DNA of 64,000 nt from Brachyhypopomus gauderio (taxonomy: Eukaryota; Chordata; Actinopteri; Gymnotiformes; Hypopomidae). Positions 3,103 through 60,954 of this stretch are shown here, one piece after another; within the stretch, counting starts at the first letter, position 1, and each line of letters starts with the position of its first letter. The notes beneath the pieces are model-generated. The model saw only the letters and a program-made list of their open reading frames with translations, did not search any database and was not told the DNA's origin. A program made the translations under genes and the position numbers. The stretch covers positions 3,360,652 to 3,424,651 of the forward strand of contig NC_135212.1 in assembly GCF_052324685.1 (NCBI RefSeq). The letters are read 5' to 3'.

Positions 3103-3141
3103 TGTTTTTGAACAGGGATGTAACTGAATTATCTCACTGTG
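3103..3141 (-). promoter_or_regulatory. Recombination signal (23-RSS) of VH2
   Basis: Minus-strand heptamer CACAGTG (3135-3141, consensus), 23-bp spacer, nonamer TCAAAAACA (3103-3111). It is directly joined to the VH2 exon. Confidence 0.9.
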
Positions 3142-3626
3142 GTTCACGAGCACAGCAATACACAGCTTTGTTTTCAGTCTGCAGATTCTGCCCTTGTAAG
3201 TTAATGGTGCTGCTGGAAGAGTCTCTGGAAACTTGAAACCTGCTTTTCAGTTTATCACTATAGTAGATGTTACCACTACCACATATCCGTCCAACCCACT
3301 CTAGAGCTTTTCCTGCAGGCTGCCGGATCCAGTGTGTACAGTAGCTGGTATCAGTGACTGAATACCCAGACACTTTACAGGTGAGTGTCATTGATTGTCC
3401 AGGACTGACAACAATGGAACCAGGCTGTGTTAACTCGATGCTGTTAATACCTGTTAAAAATGTAGATTATTTTAATATTTTCAAGGCAAATGTCTATTTA
3501 AAGTGAACATGTAATAAAGACTCATTACATGTAGTAATCTAATAACAGATAATCTATTCATGTAAAGACTGATAGAGACTCACAGCTTACAGTGGCCATC
3601 AGCAACAGCAGGAGTGTGTGGAGCAT
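3142..3626 (-). CDS. Immunoglobulin heavy-chain V segment VH2 (open, atypical FR3)
   Basis: Leader exon 3584-3626 encodes MLHTLLLLLMATVS. V exon 3142-3450 continues to framework 3. It shows LTCKVSGYSV, WIRQPAGKALEWVG and FQVSRDSSSSTINLQ, the family of VH7 and VH9. CDR1 has Cys in SYCTHW and CDR2 has Cys in GRICGSG, which could form an extra CDR1-CDR2 disulfide. The end of FR3 is odd. The usual EDTAVYYC is ENKAVYCC, so Asp is lost and a Tyr before the canonical Cys is Cys. The frame is open and the recombination signal is good, but these changes may hurt folding. It may be a V gene on the way to becoming a pseudogene. Confidence 0.9.
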
Positions 3627-5054: not shown

Positions 5055-6662
<1,608 letters not shown>

Positions 6663-10211: not shown

Positions 10212-10250
10212 TGTTTGTGCTCTGACATTTTGGCAGTTTGTGATACTGTG
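10212..10250 (-). promoter_or_regulatory. Recombination-signal-like sequence at VH6
   Basis: Minus-strand heptamer CACAGTA (10244-10250), 23-bp spacer and nonamer-like GCACAAACA (10212-10220). The spacing is correct and both motifs are imperfect. It stands directly after the repeated YYC codons of VH6, so the 3' edge of that V segment seems preserved. Confidence 0.6.
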
Positions 10251-10450
10251 CTTCCTGAGCACAGTAATACACAGCTGTGTCCTGAGCACAGTAATACACA
10301 GCCGTGTCCTGAGCACAGTAATACACAGATGTGTCCTGAGCACAGTAATACACAGATGTGTCCTGAGCACAGTAATACACAGCTGTGTCCTGAGCACAGT
10401 AATACACAGCTGTGTCCTGAGTCTGAAAGTTTCTGCCCAGTAAAGACAAT
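10251..10450 (-). pseudogene. Ig V 3' end with expanded YYC codons (VH6)
   Basis: On the minus strand the frame reads LLGRNFQTQ and then the end of FR3, DTAVYYCAQ, six times in a row with Ala or Ser variants, ending at a signal-like heptamer. No FR1, CDR1, FR2, CDR2 or leader precedes it. An octamer lies about 50 bp upstream, so most of the V exon seems deleted. The upstream flank (10640-10880) resembles that of VH8 and VH10, suggesting VH6 descends from that type of unit, though its codons QTQDTAVYYC look nearer VH7/VH9. It cannot make a V domain. Confidence 0.8.
10255..10416 (-). repeat. 27-bp tandem repeat encoding DTAVYYCAQ
   Basis: Six nearly identical 27-bp units start at 10255, 10282, 10309, 10336, 10363 and 10390 (plus coordinates). 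A seventh, partial unit leads into the V codons. Each unit encodes nine residues covering the conserved FR3 end and the canonical second Cys. Units differ at one or two bases, so expansion is recent or homogenised. It looks like slippage or unequal crossing over within the V 3' end. A CRISPR array can be excluded: this is eukaryotic DNA and there are no unique spacers. Confidence 0.92.
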
Positions 10451-10499
10451 GTGTTGCTGGAGGTTTCAAAATTTTCTTGGCAGATATTAATATAGTTAG

Positions 10500-10507
10500 A
10501 TTTGCAT
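10500..10507 (-). promoter_or_regulatory. Ig octamer upstream of VH6
   Basis: ATGCAAAT on the minus strand, followed by sequence like that around the VH8 and VH10 octamers. It is the likely old promoter of VH6. The leader and most of the V exon are missing between them. Confidence 0.55.
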
Positions 10508-10639: not shown

Positions 10640-10880
10640 GTCATGTATTTACTCGTGCCTGGGATGGATTTGTACATTAATTCAGATGAATGGAGACCAA
10701 CTGGATAGTGTGGAAGGTCATTCTTTGACCTTTATCAACTCACATATCGAGAAAAATCTGTCTTTATACAACAATATATTGGGATTTTTTTCCTGGTTCC
10801 TAACCAAAATGTAGGATTCATTTTTGTTACATATCAACATGTAAGAGCTGCTAGATTCTGACTGGTTTTCCTTTTATTAG
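10640..10880. repeat. Older copy of the VH8/VH10 upstream flank
   Basis: The stretch from a GGATGGATTTGTAC motif, through GTGTGGAAGGTCATTCTTTG, to CTAACCAAAATGTAGGATTC matches 14610-14800 and 19440-19630 with many differences. It is a diverged third copy of the duplicated V unit, placed upstream of VH6. Confidence 0.65.
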
Positions 10881-11024: not shown

Positions 11025-11441
11025 TTTTACGGTTAATCACTAGTGGTACTATCACCATGGTGTTCTCACTACTCTATTTTACGGTTAATCACTAGTGGTA
11101 CTATCACCATGGTGTTCTCACTACTCTATTTTACGGTTAATCACTAGTGGTACTATCACCATGGTGTTCTTACTACTCTATTTTAGAGTTAATCACTAGT
11201 GGTACTATCACCATGGTGTTCTCACTACTCTATTTTACGGTTAATCACTAGTGGTACTATCACCATGGTGTTTTCACTACTCTATTTTACGGTTAATAAC
11301 TAGTGGTACTATCACCATGGTGTTCTCACTACTCTGTTTTACGATTAATCACTAGTGGTACTATCACCATGGTGTTCTCACTACTTTATTTTACGGTTAA
11401 TCACTAGTGGTACTATCACCATGGTGTTCTCACTACTCTAT
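11025..11441. repeat. 52-bp minisatellite, eight copies
   Basis: Eight copies of a 52-bp unit start at 11025, 11077, 11129, 11181, 11233, 11285, 11337 and 11389. Only a few bases differ among copies. Each unit contains two short palindromes, CACTAGTG and CACCATGGTG, with about 5 bp between them. No coding role is apparent. Confidence 0.93.
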
Positions 11442-11511
11442 TCCACTCACTCTACTGCCCTACAGAGCATGTGTAGTTACTGCTATTACTGAGTGAATGA
11501 AAAACACTGTG

Positions 11512-12494: not shown

Positions 12495-12938
12495 GTTCAC
12501 GCGCACAGTAATACACAGCTGTGTCTTCAGTCTGCAGATTCTGCCCTTGTAAGTTAATGGTGCTGCTGGAAGAGTCTCTTGAAACTTGAAACCTGCTTTT
12601 CAGTTTATCACTATAGTGGGTGCTACCGCTACCACATATCCGTCCAACCCTCTCCAGAGCTTTTCCTGCAGGCTGCCGGATCCAGTGTGTACAGTAGCTG
12701 CTATCAGTGACTGAATACCCAGACACTTTACAGGTGAGTGTCATTGATTGTCCAGGACTGACAACCATGGATCCAGCTTGAATGAGTTCAACACAGTGAA
12801 CACCTGTTGGAAATTGTTCAAAAGTGTTATAAAATAAAAAATAAGAATATAACTACACAGCAGTATTTACAGTCTCATCTACAAACACTCACGGGTAATT
12901 GCTGCCACTAGCAACAGCGGTAGGAATGTAGTAAGCAT
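12495..12938 (-). CDS. Immunoglobulin heavy-chain V segment VH7 (intact)
   Basis: Leader exon 12893-12938 encodes MLTTFLPLLLVAAIT. V exon 12495-12803 shows VELIQAGSMVVSPG, LTCKVSGYSV, WIRQPAGKALERVG, FQVSRDSSSSTINL and [11 protein letters not shown]. Extra Cys residues stand in CDR1 (SYCTHW) and CDR2 (GRICGSG), as in VH2 and VH9. In FR2 the usual LEW is LER, a change at a residue that normally helps the VH-VL interface. No stop or frameshift is seen. It is the unit-A twin of VH9. Confidence 0.92.
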
Positions 12939-13978: not shown

Positions 13979-14420
13979 GGCGTCTAGCACAGTAATACAC
14001 AGCAGTGTCTTCACTCTTCAGATTGTTCATCTGTAAGTACAGCTGACTGCTGGAGTCGTCTCTGGAGATTGTGAATCTTCCTTGGACTGATTGGGAATAA
14101 TAGATGGGACTACTAGATGTGCTGATGTATGCAATCCACTCTAGTCCTTTCCCAGGTGCCTGTCTGACCCAGCTCATACGATAGCTACTGAATGTGAATC
14201 CAGAGCCTTTACAGGTCAGTTTATGAGAGTCTCCGGGTCTTTTTACCACAGCTTCAGACTGAGTCAGACTCTGACATAGAGAACCTGTGAAACAGAATAA
14301 TCAGAGTTATGAGTTAAACTCTTTCTTGACTTTTTCCATCTACATAATGAACTCATTTCCATCCTGACACTTACGTGGTAGACATGCCAGCATCAGCAGT
14401 AGGAGAGGTGAGAGATACAT
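13979..14420 (-). CDS. Immunoglobulin heavy-chain V segment VH8 (intact)
   Basis: Leader exon 14375-14420 encodes [16 protein letters not shown] exon 13979-14284 shows [58 protein letters not shown] and [11 protein letters not shown]. This is a typical teleost and mammal-like VH framework with only the two canonical Cys in the V domain core. No defect is seen. It is the unit-A twin of VH10, from which it differs mainly in CDR1 and CDR2. Confidence 0.94.
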
Positions 14421-22502: not shown

Positions 22503-24018
22503 CAGTCATGGCCAAAAGTTTTGAGAATGATACAAATATTAATTTTTACAAAGTCTACTGCTTCAGTTTTTATAATGGCAATTTGCATATACTCCAGAAT
22601 GTTATAAAGAGTGATCAGCTTAACAGCAATGAATTGCAAAGTCAATATTTGCCTAGAAAATGATTATCCCCCAAAACACATTTCAACTTCATTGCAGCCC
22701 GGCCTTAAAAGGACCAGCTAACATCGTTTCAGTGATTGCTCCATTAACACAGGTGTGGGTGTGGATGAGGACAGGGCTGGAGATCAATCTGTCATCATTA
22801 AGTAAGAATGACACCACTGGACACTTCAAAAGGAGGCTGGTGCTTGACATCATTGTTTCTCTTCTGTTAACCATGGTTATCTCTAAAGAAACACGTGCAG
22901 TCATCATTGCACTGCACAAAAAGAAAGATTGTACCTCAGTCAACAATCTATCGCATCGTCAAGAACTTCAAGGAGAGAGGTTCCATTGTTGCCAAAAAAG
23001 CTCCAGGGCGCCCAAGAAAGACCAGCAAGCGTCAGGACCATCTCTTAAAAGTGTTTCAGCTGCGGGATCGTACCCTACCAGCAATGCAGAGCTTGCTCAG
23101 GAATGGCAGCAGGCAGGTGTGAGTGCATCTGCACGCACTGTGAGGCGGAGACTCTTGGAGCAAGGCCTGGTCTCAAGGAGGGCAGCAAAGAAACCACTTC
23201 TCTCCAGAAAAAACATCAGGGACAGACTGATATTCTGCAAAAGGTACAGGGAGTGGACTGCTGAGGACTGGGGTAAAGTCATTTTCTCTGATGAATCCCC
23301 TTTCCGATTGTTTGGGACATCTGGAAAACAGCTTGTTCTGAGAAGACGAGGTGAGCGCTACCACCAGTCTTGTCTCATGCCAACTGTAAAGCATCCTGAA
23401 ACCATTCATGTGTGGAGTTGCTTCTCAGCCAAGGGAATCGGCTCTCTCACAGTCTTGCCTAAAAACACAGCCATGAATAAAGAATGGTACCAGAATGTCC
23501 TCCAAGAGCAACTTCTCCCAACCATCCAAGAGCAGTTTGGTGATCAACAATGCCCTTTCCAGCATGATGGAGCACCTTGCCATAAAGCAAAGGTGATAAC
23601 TAAATGGCTCAGGGAACAAAACAGAGATTTTGGGTCCGTGGCCTGGAAACTCCCCAGATCTTAATCCCATTGAGAACTTGTGGTCAATCATGAAGAGACG
23701 GGTGGGCAAACAAAAACCTACACATTCTGCAAGCATTGACTGTGTGAGAATGGACTGCTATCAGTCAAGATTTGGTCCAGAAGTTGATTGAGAGCATGAC
23801 ACGGAGAATTGCAGAGGTCCTGAAGAAGGGTCAACACTGCAAATATTGACTTGCTGCATTAACTCATTCTAACTGTCAATAAAAGCTTTTGTTACTCATG
23901 ATTGCAGTTATATTTCTGTATGTGATTACATCTGACAAACGCACATAAAAGCCAGAGGGCAGCAGATCATATGAAAACATAATATTTGTGTCATTCTCAA
24001 AACTTTTGGCCATGACTG
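22503..24018 (+). mobile_element. Tc1-like element C, nearly full length
   Basis: A 1516-bp element with ends CAGTCATGGCCAAAAGTTTT and complement, TA on both sides, inserted in the left inverted repeat of element B. It carries a disrupted transposase gene. It is the youngest layer of the nest. Confidence 0.92.
22873..23880 (+). pseudogene. Tc1-like transposase of element C, frameshifted
   Basis: It starts MVISKETRAVIIALHKKKDC, then the frame shifts. The helix-turn-helix region (STIYRIVKNFKERGSIV) reads in another frame before the main frame resumes near 23100. DDE residues are visible: Asp in FSDESPF, Asp in FQHDGAPCHKAK, Glu in [12 protein letters not shown] further frame change lies near 23640, just before the Glu motif. 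At least three frame breaks make it inactive. Family motifs are known from Tc1 transposases. Confidence 0.87.
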
Positions 24019-24119: not shown

Positions 24120-24716
24120 CCTGCAGGCCTCACTTGCCTTAGTTAAGGTCAGTTTTCATGCCTCCACCATCAGAAAGAGACTGGACAAAAAATGGCCTAC
24201 ATGGCAGAGTTCCTAGAAGAAAACCACTGCTGAGCAAAAAGAACATTAAAGCTCGTCTCAATGTTTCCAGAACACATTTTCCATCTTTATGATCCCCAAG
24301 ACTTTTGGGAAAACATTCTGTGGACTGATGAGACAAAAGCTGAACTCTTTGGAAGGTGTGTGTCCCAGTACATCTGGTGTAAAAGAAACACTGCATTCCA
24401 GAAGAAGAACATTATACCAACAGTAAAATATGGTGGTGGTAGTGTGACGGTCTGGGGCTGTTTTGCTGCGTCAGGACCTGGAAGACTTGCTGTGATAAAT
24501 GGAACTATGAATTATGCTGTCTACCAAAAGATCTTGAAGGAGAATGTCCGATCATCTGTTTGTGACCTCAAGCTGAAAAGAACTTGGGTTCTACAACAAG
24601 ACAATGATCCAAAACACACCAGCAAGTCCACCTCTGAATGGCTGAAGAAAAACAAAATGAAGACTTTGGAGTGGCCTAGTCAAAGTCCTGACCTCAATCT
24701 GATTGTGATGCTGTGA
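24120..24716 (+). pseudogene. Tc1-like transposase remnant of element B
   Basis: The C-terminal half is open from about 24261: WTDETK with the first Asp, [28 protein letters not shown] with the second Asp. The usual PDLNPIE reads PDLNLIV, so the catalytic Glu is lost, and a stop follows at once. The 24120-24260 stretch has HTH-to-linker codons in shifted frames. The N-terminal region is missing. Confidence 0.85.
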
Positions 24717-28041: not shown

Positions 28042-30765
28042 ATGGAAAGCCAGAAGCAAGTGTTGGAGAGACTTCGTGCTGCGTTCCAGTCAGGTGTGAC
28101 GGTGCCACTACAGTTCCGTCTTACCCAGCTGCAGTCTCTTCTCTCTCTACTCGAAGACAATGAGACGCAGATCTTGGAGGCACTGCATAAAGACCTCGCA
28201 AAGGTAAAATGTACACAAACACACACGAAGGTGTCAAACATTGTTCTGTCCCCCCAGTAACCCTTTCTTCTTCCTTTCTTCTTCCTTTCTTCTTCCTTTC
28301 TTCTTCCTTTCTTTCTTGTAGCCCAAATTTGAAGCAGTGCTGTCAGAAATTGACATTGTGGTCAATGATCTTTGCTATACCATCAGTAACTTGGCCACCT
28401 GGATACAGCCCAGTTATGTGAGCAAAAACCTGGTAAGATTCACACAGAATGTCATTTGTATGCATCAGATCTGATTTGACAATGAGTAAAACCACTGAGC
28501 AAATTGAGAAAGGCAGTACTGTGGAGAAGCACCGACAGCTTTTCAGAAAACCCCTTTGTGTTTCTTTCTCTCGTTTTTGTGCACTGCACTTAGGCCACAA
28601 AGCTGGACGAGTGCTTCATCCGCAAAGAGCCGCTAGGGGTCGTTTTGATCATCAGCGCGTGGAACTACCCGCTGCAGCTCATTGTGGGGCCGCTAATTGG
28701 CGCTATTGCTGCAGGTAGATTTGACTGCCTTCACAATGCCTCTCGGTCCAACCAGAGCATGCGTTTATGTACAGCATTCAAGTACAAGTCTTCCGTCTGT
28801 GTCGAATGCTTTTGTAAGGCACTGTACATGGATCTGATTCCTGTATCACTGCACAGGCAACTGTGCCATTCTGAAGCCATCGGAGATAAGCCGAGCGACT
28901 GAGAGACTTCTCGCGGAGCTCATACCCAAGTACCTGTCTCAGGTAATGTGTGGATAAAACGTCTCGACGATGTCTTATGAACACATGCCTTTTTATGCTT
29001 GCTTATTTTAAACTACCAGGGAGGGACGGCTGAAGCTGTCCTTAGCACTGTCTAACAGGGGAGGGTCTTGTGTTATTTTAAGGCTCATGGTGCGGGCTAC
29101 AGTGACTACAGTGGCCTTGGTGTTCTTTAGCTTTCCCAAAGCCTTTCCAAGTTCAGTATCCAGCAGCTACTAAAGCGTATGGATTAATGAAGCTGTAGGT
29201 CTTCATTTGTATAGCACCTTTCATACATACATGCAACTCAAAATGCTTTATGCGTATGTGGCAAAGTGTAAGCGTGTAATTGTAATTCAGTTAACGCCTT
29301 AACTGTATATTAATGCTTGTTTTGGATACATCTTACATCTTGGTCATGCACTATAATTGCAATTTCAGGAGTGCTTTGCTGTTATTTGTGGAGGAGCAGA
29401 AGAAACCACGTCATTATTGGAGAACAGATTTGATCACATCTTCTACACAGGTAGGTGTCCCCCAGTGTGTCAGCCATGACACAACAGATGGGAGTTCAGG
29501 CCACTACAGAACGCCTTCGAGCCTCGTTGTGTGATCTGCTCTCAGGCTCCCAAGCAGTAGCTCGCAACATCCTCCGGGCGGCTGCGGCGCACCTCACCCC
29601 CGTCACCCTGGAGCTGGGCGGCAAGTGTCCCTGCCTCATCTACGGCAACGTGAACGTGTTGGCTGCAGCCAAGAGGCTGGTGTGGTCCAAGTTCTTCAAT
29701 GCGGGACAGAGCTGCGTGGCACCAGACTACGTTCTGTGCACGCTGGAAATGCGGGAAGAGCTCCTGCCCGCGATTGTCAAGGCCCTGGCCACCTTCTATG
29801 GCTCTGAGCCGCGGCAGAGTGTGGATTTCGGACGCATTGTGACGGACAGGCACTGGGACAGGCTCACAGCCCTCCTGGCCAAGTCACAGGGGAGGGTGGT
29901 CATAGGAGGAGATTCTTCGAAAGAGGACAAGTACTTTGGTGAGCGTGGGAGGCATTTAATTTACTCTAGTTTTTAGTCCCATGAAATTGCCAGCAAAGGC
30001 TAAATTCTGCATCTTCCTGTGCTAATTGTCTGCTGTTCTTTCCAATGGGTCCAGCTCCTACTGTGATCGTGGACTTGGATACGTCGGACGCCCTGATGCA
30101 GGAGGAGATTTTTGGTCCCATTATGCCTATTATTACTATAGAGTCCCTGGACCAGGGAATTTCCATTATCAATCGGATGGAGAAACCCTTGGCTCTTTAC
30201 GCCTTTTCTGACGACTCTAAGGTAGGAGGCCACACCACGCCGGGAGAGGACAAAGCTGCTGCCCATTTTCACCAGAGCTTTCAGGAAACACGAGGTGACA
30301 AAATGAACGTTTCTTCTTCAGATTGTGACTACGGTACTGGAAAGAACCAGCAGCGGAGGGTTCTGCTCCAACGATGGGATCGTTCACATGACGATACCCA
30401 CCTTGCCTTTTGGAGGAGTGGGTGAGTGTATCATCAAGTGACATGGGCAGCCCCCATATGCCTTTAGAGGTGTTTAAACAAAGTTGAGCTTGCCATAACA
30501 ATCTCACACTGAATAGATCTGTGGGAAGGCGTGTGACACGTTTTGATGTCCGTGTGTTCGGCCAGGGGCCAGCGGAATGGGCAGTTACCACGGCCGCTGG
30601 ACCTACGAGACGTTCAGCCATAGGCGTGCCTGTATGCTGCGGAGCTGGGGGCTGGAGCGAATCGGCATGTTGCGTTACCCGCCGTACACGGAGAGCAACC
30701 TGGGCTGGCTACGGTGGGCCACCACAACCAAAAAGAAGAGCTGGGGATGGTGCAGTGTGATGTAA
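28042..30765 (+). CDS. aldh3b1: Aldehyde dehydrogenase, ALDH3B type
   Basis: Nine coding exons: 28042-28203, 28322-28432, 28594-28714, 28857-28942, 29369-29450, 29546-29938, 30055-30221, 30322-30421, 30566-30765. They join in frame to 473 aa, close to the roughly 470 aa of human ALDH3B1. The enzyme oxidises fatty and other aldehydes with NAD(P)+. Visible motifs are APWNYPLQ-like [17 protein letters not shown], catalytic Glu about residue 210 in TLELGGK, catalytic Cys about 244 in [34 protein letters not shown] and [14 protein letters not shown]. The protein ends CSVM, a CAAX-type lipidation signal, and has no C-terminal membrane helix as ALDH3A2 does. That and the SGGFCSND stretch favour ALDH3B over ALDH3A. 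The 1B/2B paralog choice is not settled. Coding starts in the second exon. Confidence 0.9.
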
Positions 30766-37645: not shown

Positions 37646-47402
<9,757 letters not shown>

Positions 47403-53722: not shown

Positions 53723-54941
53723 ATGGCTGCCTCGTGGGTGCTGCGGAGAGTCTGCTCCACCGCCGCCTCGGCGTCTGACAAGGGCACCAGGTGGCAAAGA
53801 CTGTTGAACAGTCGAGCGAGTGAGTAGGGGTTTCTTTGCTTTTATTTTTTCTCTTGGTGTTCCGTATTTTGCACTCCCAATCTCACTAGAACTGGTCATT
53901 ACTCAATTTACTGTGCACCATACCCTTACATACCCAGTTCATTAGAAATACTTAGGTATTTAGCTTATGCCCAAAAAATATGCAGTAGCATTGTGGTCAG
54001 AAATAGATCGTTCATGAGAATAAATAACAAAATGTGTGTAGATAAAATACCTATAATCTACACAAAGTGCATACAAGATTTTTTACTGGTGAGTGTAGAT
54101 AACGTTAGTGCATAATTTTATTGGTTTAACAACGTTAACCGTTTGTATTTTTTAATTAACGGCACCAGTTATATAGACCACGTGATCATCTCCAATGTTC
54201 TTGCTCCTTAGTTTGTTTTCCGGTAGTGGGAAATTCACGGTTGTCTTTGATACTCTAAAACCTATTGAGATGAACCTTTTGGCAGGTGCGTGGTGTCGCA
54301 GTCTTCTGGGCGACTACAAAGAGGCGTGTCGTGAAGTGGTCGTCGGGGCACGGGAGCACCCCCTCAAAGCCGCTGTTTATGTGGCCTTGCTGGGGGGGAC
54401 ATATGTCTGCTACCGCACCAATCCAGACGGGGCTTCTTTCCAGGCTAACCTACTAGAGAAATCCAACGAGCTAGCACTGCTGTCCCCGTGGACACGCAGC
54501 GGCACGTCGGACGAGCACGTCCAGAGCCTGGTGAAGCTCCACGCCGAGGGCCGCTTGCGCCACCTGAGTCTGGGCGTCGTCTCGCTGGCGTACGTGGCGG
54601 ACCACGACCCCGCCTGCGACCTGTACGAAGCTCGCTGCAGCGCCCTGTCCACGCCCTGGGCCGAGCTGCCCAGACGCCTGTTGGACGTGGGATTCGCCGG
54701 CCACTGGTGGCTCCTGGATGAGAAGATGAAGGACTACGACATCAACGAGGAGGAGTTCAAACACCTCGCGCCTGCCTTGGTCGCCACAGCGCCCCCCTCT
54801 GCACAGGAGACGGAGAGAAACGAAAGACTGCACGAAGAGTCGTGGAAGCCGCTGGTGATGGGGGAGGAGATGAAGGACGCCGTAGACATTGTGGTGAAAG
54901 AGGGAGCAGTAACAGGAGAAAGGAAGGAGAACAGCGCATGA
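53723..54941 (+). CDS. timm29: Mitochondrial inner membrane translocase subunit Tim29
   Basis: Two exons, 53723-53819 and 54286-54941, join in frame to 250 aa (human TIMM29 260 aa). Tim29 is a metazoan subunit of the TIM22 carrier translocase that inserts multi-pass carriers in the inner membrane. Seen: N-terminal presequence MAASWVLRRVCSTAASASDK, LLGDYKEACREVVVGAREHP, one membrane segment AAVYVALLGGTYVCYR, then GRLRHLSLGVVSLAYVADHD, YEARCSALSTPWAELPRRLL, DVGFAGHWWLLDEKMKDYDI and NEEEFKHL, all in human order. A longer open frame begins at 54195 but its first part does not resemble Tim29; ATG 53723 plus the GTGAGT donor gives the right N-terminus. Confidence 0.94.
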
Positions 54942-59962: not shown

Positions 59963-60954
59963 GTGAGTAAATTCTTGGCATGTTTTGAAAGAAAAGCGTC
60001 ACGCATCCTGTGTTTAGTTTAGCATCGCCATCTGAATTTTGCACTCCGTCAATTTTGTGACATGGTTACACCTAGCCAAGGCGACCATGTGGACATGTAT
60101 ATAGGTAGCAAATCTTGATGCGGTTGAGTGAGTAAATCTATGTAGACCTGCATTTTGTTGGGTTACACACGCTCCTTTGAATTTTTATGAAGAAAGAAAG
60201 AAAGAAAGAGAAAAACTCGGCCACAGGCGAGTCACGGTGAACATTCAACGCTGTCGGTGAGTTTTGAAGTGAGTGAAACCATCGAGCGTTGAGTGTACCC
60301 TGCCTCTCGAGCTCACACCTACCACTACAGCTTCATACGCTGCACCAATTACACGTGCAATATCTCTTAGCCGCCGAGCTGGCCAAGATGGCTGCCGGGC
60401 TGCCTCCACTGGCATCACCACTAGCCAATGCCAAAGACACTCCATCCATTCCCATAGCTCAGAGTCCCGTTTCACATTCATTGCTGTCGGTGGGTTTTAT
60501 CAGGCTGACTCGCCGAACAATGAATGAGAAATGTGGTCTTCTGTTACGGCTCATCGCCCGCTCTAATGGCCCATGTGCTTGGGAATTACAATTCATCTGT
60601 ATTCTTTCATTATTTGAAATGTGTTTCAATCTATATGCGTCAATGTAGGTCAATAAATGAGAAATCTAAATTAGAACCTTGAATGCGTTTCGTTGCCTTT
60701 TTTTGACGGTGTGTGTTGTGGTTTCTGCAAACAAGTCTGGATTCTCTATAGTTGTAGTGCCCCTCAATCACCCCCACCCCCTCCCCTCGCATAGAGATAT
60801 CGTTAGAGATATTCCACTAGATTCCACAGTTCCACAAGCCGAACCCGGAGCCGACAAAACCGATCGATCAGTCATACTGATCCACCTGATCTTCAGAGAC
60901 AGAGAGTAGGAGAGTCAACATTGGTTACAAGAATGTGTCCCTTCCTCAGGCTAA

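Follow-up and report, generated by a model that had tools for sequence, protein, structure and literature searches.

The VH cluster and its truncated pseudogene

The window, the whole stretch of 64,000 nucleotides of Brachyhypopomus gauderio DNA that was analysed and that corresponds to C2:3360652-3424651, takes in one end of a densely packed VH cluster, with minus-strand V genes at about 804, 3171, 7214, 12525, 14009, 15461, 18841 and 20142. The V genes at 12525, 14009 and 20142 match the Pfam V-set at 1e-11 to 3e-13, and the cluster is labelled heavy chain on the strength of the one at 14009, which also matches antibody heavy-chain domains of known structure. The minus-strand V gene at 3137-3466 reads NKAVYCC for DTAVYYC, the Tyr before the conserved Cys being a Cys, and elsewhere in the cluster one V end (C2:3235024, within locus L032) lies in inverse orientation with a high-scoring plus-strand RSS. 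Tc1/mariner-like transposase pieces (DDE_3, HTH_Tnp_Tc3_2) were found at 5757-6440 and 22657-23661, with a similar frame at 24234-24713. Both the V genes and the transposons have the look of a bony fish. To the right of the V genes lie an aldehyde dehydrogenase exon (29455-29973) and a Tim29 gene (54186-54938), and the plus strand carries two mir-181 precursors (60229-60306 and 60462-60540, 66.1 and 50.6 bits) about 155 bp apart. An 18-copy array of 42 bp (46274-47021) is open over 257-335 codons in four frames; its Pfam matches to TcpQ and eIF2_C pass the whole-protein cut-offs with no single stretch passing alone, and we took them as repeat artefacts.

The first-pass annotation had read 10251..10450 as an Ig V pseudogene with expanded YYC codons. 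The array is there, reading on the minus strand, and the FR3 homology, the conserved DTAVYYC and a missing 5′ part bear out its host as an Ig VH pseudogene. From high to low coordinates, the minus strand shows a promoter octamer (ATGCAAAT, 10500..10507), an FR3 remnant of 51 bp ending in SSNTLSLLGRNFQTQ (10417..10467), six 27-bp units, GAAG, and an RSS-like signal made of the heptamer CACAGTA (10244..10250), a 23-bp spacer and the degenerate nonamer GCACAAACA (10212..10220). The remnant includes the LLGRNFQTQ lead-in that had been described before and is 74-77% identical over 43-51 bp to the FR3 of the V genes L014, L015, L021, L022 and L023; with the conserved DTAVYYC, this homology places the sequence among IGHV genes in any state.

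A functional IGHV gene has a leader exon, an intron and a complete V-set with an ATG, and none of this organisation was found. The octamer lies 91 bp upstream of DTAVYYC. Of 18 reference rows, among which one place appears twice, 17 have it at 491-536 bp and the last, V804, showed no octamer; about 400 bp are therefore missing in the pseudogene, and the leader, the intron and the FR1-CDR2 region have been lost. Between the octamer and the array or RSS there is no usable ATG, the sole one being the octamer's own (ATG-CAA-ATC-TAA), and therefore no joint can encode a chain. A Pfam search of the stop-to-stop translation of the pseudogene gave no V-set match, whereas the three neighbouring V genes tested all matched; the hits obtained, NDUS4 (E 0.0041) and YdjO (E 0.24), were both below the curated cut-offs. 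As judged from its sequence, the pseudogene is no longer able to produce an antibody chain and has no coding role. The non-functional, Cys-rich joint that had been proposed as its rearranged product thus gives way to no chain at all, given the lack of both a leader and a usable ATG.

The ancestry of the 5′ part was approached through its promoter and its flank. The promoter matches L021 weakly, over 14 exact bp at E 0.055, as read from BLAST diagonals because a global alignment mis-threaded it; an assignment to the L021 family can only be weakly suggested. Further upstream on the same strand, 10650..10840 shares 78% identity with the distal upstream flanks of V14009 and V18841; it lies 233-423 bp upstream in the pseudogene, and its counterpart 589-789 bp upstream in the two V genes. 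Because the L021 promoter match is weak and the distal flank matches another V family, the 5′ part may possibly be chimeric; the flank match is real, but it is not decisive, and we did not take it as proof of a chimera.

The 7-23-9 signal reported after the array is present, yet it scores weakly. Scored with a weight matrix trained on 19 distinct RSSs of the neighbourhood, it reached 14.7, compared with 22.4-26.8 for 16 of the 19; the other three scored 11-13, either with the nonamer off the 23-bp spacing or with the RSS cut. Over 200 kb and both strands, 51 of 8214 CAC starts scored at least as high as the pseudogene RSS: 41 training sites, one opposite-strand V, two copies of the pseudogene and seven others. 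The 23-bp-spacer RSS expected at an IGHV 3′ end is therefore present in weak form, and it looks like a decayed RSS. Such a predicted signal would allow rare null joints at most; if it works, genomic VDJ or RNA repertoire reads joined to CTCAGGAAG would be expected.

The 27-bp array and its five paralogous copies

Inspection of the sequence and of its open reading frames placed six 27-bp units, GACAC(AG/AT/GG)CTGTGTATTACTGTGCTCAG, at 10255..10416 on the minus strand; named by the variable codon, they run A A T T G A. TRF called the same array at 10253-10421, with 6.3 copies, 97% matches, no indels and a score of 317, and the six-unit tandem repeat of YYC codons is thus real. The translation DTAVYYCAQ, previously given for every unit, is right for four of the six, the other two reading DTSVYYCAQ. 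As the array length equals six units plus 7 bp, the direct repeat CTCAGGA is present at both edges, its first copy at 10415..10421 and its last at 10253..10259, both on the minus strand. The frame stays open, as had been noted and ascribed to a unit length that is a multiple of three; however, the 27-bp unit is stop-free in five of six frames, so that an open frame across the array carries no weight. A coding role for the array was ruled out by these open frames together with the lack of a usable ATG and of a V-set match. Minisatellites consist of head-to-tail units of about 10-60 bp, and the window array (27 bp × 6.3) is of this kind.

We searched the genome (796.5 Mb in 840 contigs, some stretches of which read N, all counts being lower bounds) and found the array in at least five paralogous places by DNA search; a search with the 5′ flank returned the same five, each with an array. 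A tandem-unit pattern, which detects close matches to the unit only, gave 20 matches (tandem pairs) genome-wide, all 20 in the five arrays, and the reversed control pattern gave none; the array is therefore not a chance pattern, and no further array of similar form was found by this pattern elsewhere in the genome. A looser pattern gave 610 matches against 281 for its control. Among the matches listed, which reached as far as contig C3, those at 2.8-3.4 Mb of C2 were the five arrays, and the remainder resembled unrelated repeats by eye.

All five copies lie on C2. Together they hold 25 units: AATTGA (6) in the window, ATTGGAA (7) at 3314 kb, aAA (3) at 3153 kb, TTTA (4) at 3095 kb and GGGGA (5) at 3222 kb. 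The earlier count of six units was thus correct for the window and missed four sister copies with 3, 4, 5 and 7. Every one of the five arrays ends in an A unit, and the octamer is kept in all five copies, an RSS-like signal in four. The 900-bp upstream flanks, other small arrays included, are 94-99% identical. Unit number therefore varies between paralogs of one genome, as it does between copies of a minisatellite. The window and the 3314 kb copy show this clearly: they agree at every position over 240 bp of 5′ flank and mismatch at three positions over 500 bp of 3′ flank, and despite these near-identical flanks the arrays differ in unit number and order, being three single-unit steps apart by hand count.

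The other V ends found in the 200-kb cluster region have one unit each. A further comparison took 63 single-unit rows, four of which repeat a place already counted; as 15 of the rows are loci picked by similarity, it is not a census. The closest of the 63 to the arrayed form was L021, which reads CTGAGGA and CTCGGGA at the two CTCAGGA places (5/7 matching). TRF returned 107 rows for the 200-kb region, six of them at V ends or their exons, and among these six only the three of 27 bp multiply YYC codons.

Origin of the array

Very probably, the array arose by replication slippage or unequal exchange and was spread by block duplication, without a coding role. This cause, one of those offered by the first-pass annotation, is the best fit to the 7-bp edge repeats, to the differences in unit number between near-identical paralogs and to a neighbouring non-V array that also varies. 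PMC3389668 outlines a model, credited to Haber and Louis, in which direct repeats of 5-10 bp set the limits of a segment that slippage or unequal crossing over then duplicates, and most flanks in the set described there are 7 bp; the CTCAGGA at both edges of the array agrees with this. We infer the following order of events, with slippage or exchange as their agent. The loss of about 400 bp that lay between promoter and late FR3 would have turned an IGHV gene into a pseudogene free of coding constraint, and the last FR3 codons of this gene would have come to lie between CTCAGGA direct repeats 27 bp apart. Slippage or unequal exchange between the two CTCAGGA copies may then have duplicated the 27-bp segment, and later slippage, exchange or conversion could have built it up into a small minisatellite. 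As blocks of the VH cluster were duplicated, the pseudogene would have been carried to five places, in which the number of units (3 to 7) and their order presumably keep changing. According to PMC3389668, the expansion of longer repeats is believed to be driven by meiotic gene conversion rather than by slippage, so that slippage proper may explain the first step only. No single-unit ancestor of the pseudogene was found, all five genomic places of its 5′ flank having arrays, and the first duplication was thus not directly seen. The exact 7-bp match of the edges could derive partly from later homogenisation.

A second cause proposed for the repeat was the faulty repair of germ-line RAG breaks, and no result calls for it. 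Here RAG would break the V end both at its true RSS and, within each unit, at a reversed cryptic heptamer TACTGTG, with misrepair having made the array or still changing it, which we regard as very unlikely. The VH cryptic heptamer, named as such in an excerpt of PMC3526766, does occur in every unit; however, TACTGTG is commonly spelled by Tyr-Cys-Ala codons, and the other V ends of the 200-kb region share the cryptic heptamer region and yet have one unit each. The junctions between units show no extra bases and fall within the 7-bp homology. They lie inside the CTCAGGA block, itself placed between the heptamer-like motifs TACTGTG and CACAGCT, and for this reason slippage and a break at that point cannot be told apart from the sequence alone.

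Also on the side of RAG is the RSS border of the 3222 kb copy, where a 323-bp deletion takes the RSS; its break falls 1-2 nt within the heptamer and shows 1 bp of microhomology. At its far end, however, no heptamer was seen by eye. In a further V (3267425) the RSS is interrupted within the spacer, and these two events cannot carry the claim. Joined Ig genes do occur in the germ line of cartilaginous fish, according to a passage in PMC5192425. Against the RAG reading stands also the 52-bp minisatellite that served as control (11025..11442, 8 copies). It lies about 600 bp from the V-end array, outside any V exon, and has 8.0, 6.0 and 4.0 copies in three paralogous blocks of the 200-kb region, the window having 8. 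As this non-V array varies too, the V end is not the only unstable place, and the array there resembles its non-V neighbour in behaviour. In-register tandem copies of 27 bp are not a known outcome of RAG repair. The wider proposal, that germ-line nicking or cutting by RAG, at the RSS and at embedded TACTGTG heptamers, makes V 3′ ends fragile and that an unconstrained pseudogene records this as unit gains and losses and one RSS-border deletion, would have an equally slim chance of being right; germ-line RAG damage is not needed to explain the array.

It is still less probable that the arrays are an assembly artefact. The cluster is repetitive, and the 3153 and 3095 kb copies have a run of N that stops about 1.1 and 1.6 kb, respectively, short of the array on its upstream side; against this, the five separate loci differ in unit number, unit variants and flanks, and their units span only 81-189 bp, which long reads exceed. 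Equally remote is the idea that the arrayed V is kept as a decoy giving null VDJ joints, for although the octamer is present in five of five copies and the RSS-like signal in four, this signal is weak (14.7 vs 22.4-26.8) and lost in one copy, and block duplication accounts for the five copies without any use.

Relation to known systems

The array is an ordinary minisatellite whose location is unusual, within a truncated VH pseudogene found at five places. It lets the birth and turnover of a minisatellite in an antigen-receptor locus be followed in a small and clean example, with five copies, comparable flanks, 3-7 units and traceable variants. It is also a warning for annotation, where repeated YYC codons in an open frame should not be taken for a Cys-rich V gene; the understanding of V(D)J recombination is unchanged unless a RAG link is shown. 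Within the titles and openings of abstracts listed, we found no report of repeated YYC codons in a germ-line V, and the exact repeat peptide strings had no match in the papers searched.

The closest known setting is that of teleost translocon IGHV loci, in which pseudogenes abound. A passage in PMC2996982 puts pseudogenes at more than 68% in the IGHV locus of Atlantic salmon, and one in PMC5192425 at over half of 55 VH in catfish. The locus described here is alike in its dense VH cluster with octamers and 23-RSSs, and the window pseudogene differs in its missing leader-to-CDR2 part and its tandem YYC array. With VH replacement it shares the cryptic RSS heptamer TACTGTG, present in each of the six window units; here, however, the heptamer is spelled by the Tyr-Tyr-Cys codons, with no sign of use in the sequence. 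With Haber-Louis minisatellites it shares the 7-bp edge repeats, a length of integer units plus 7 bp and the variation of unit number between near-identical copies; unlike them, its seed is the YYC codons of a V gene beside an RSS.
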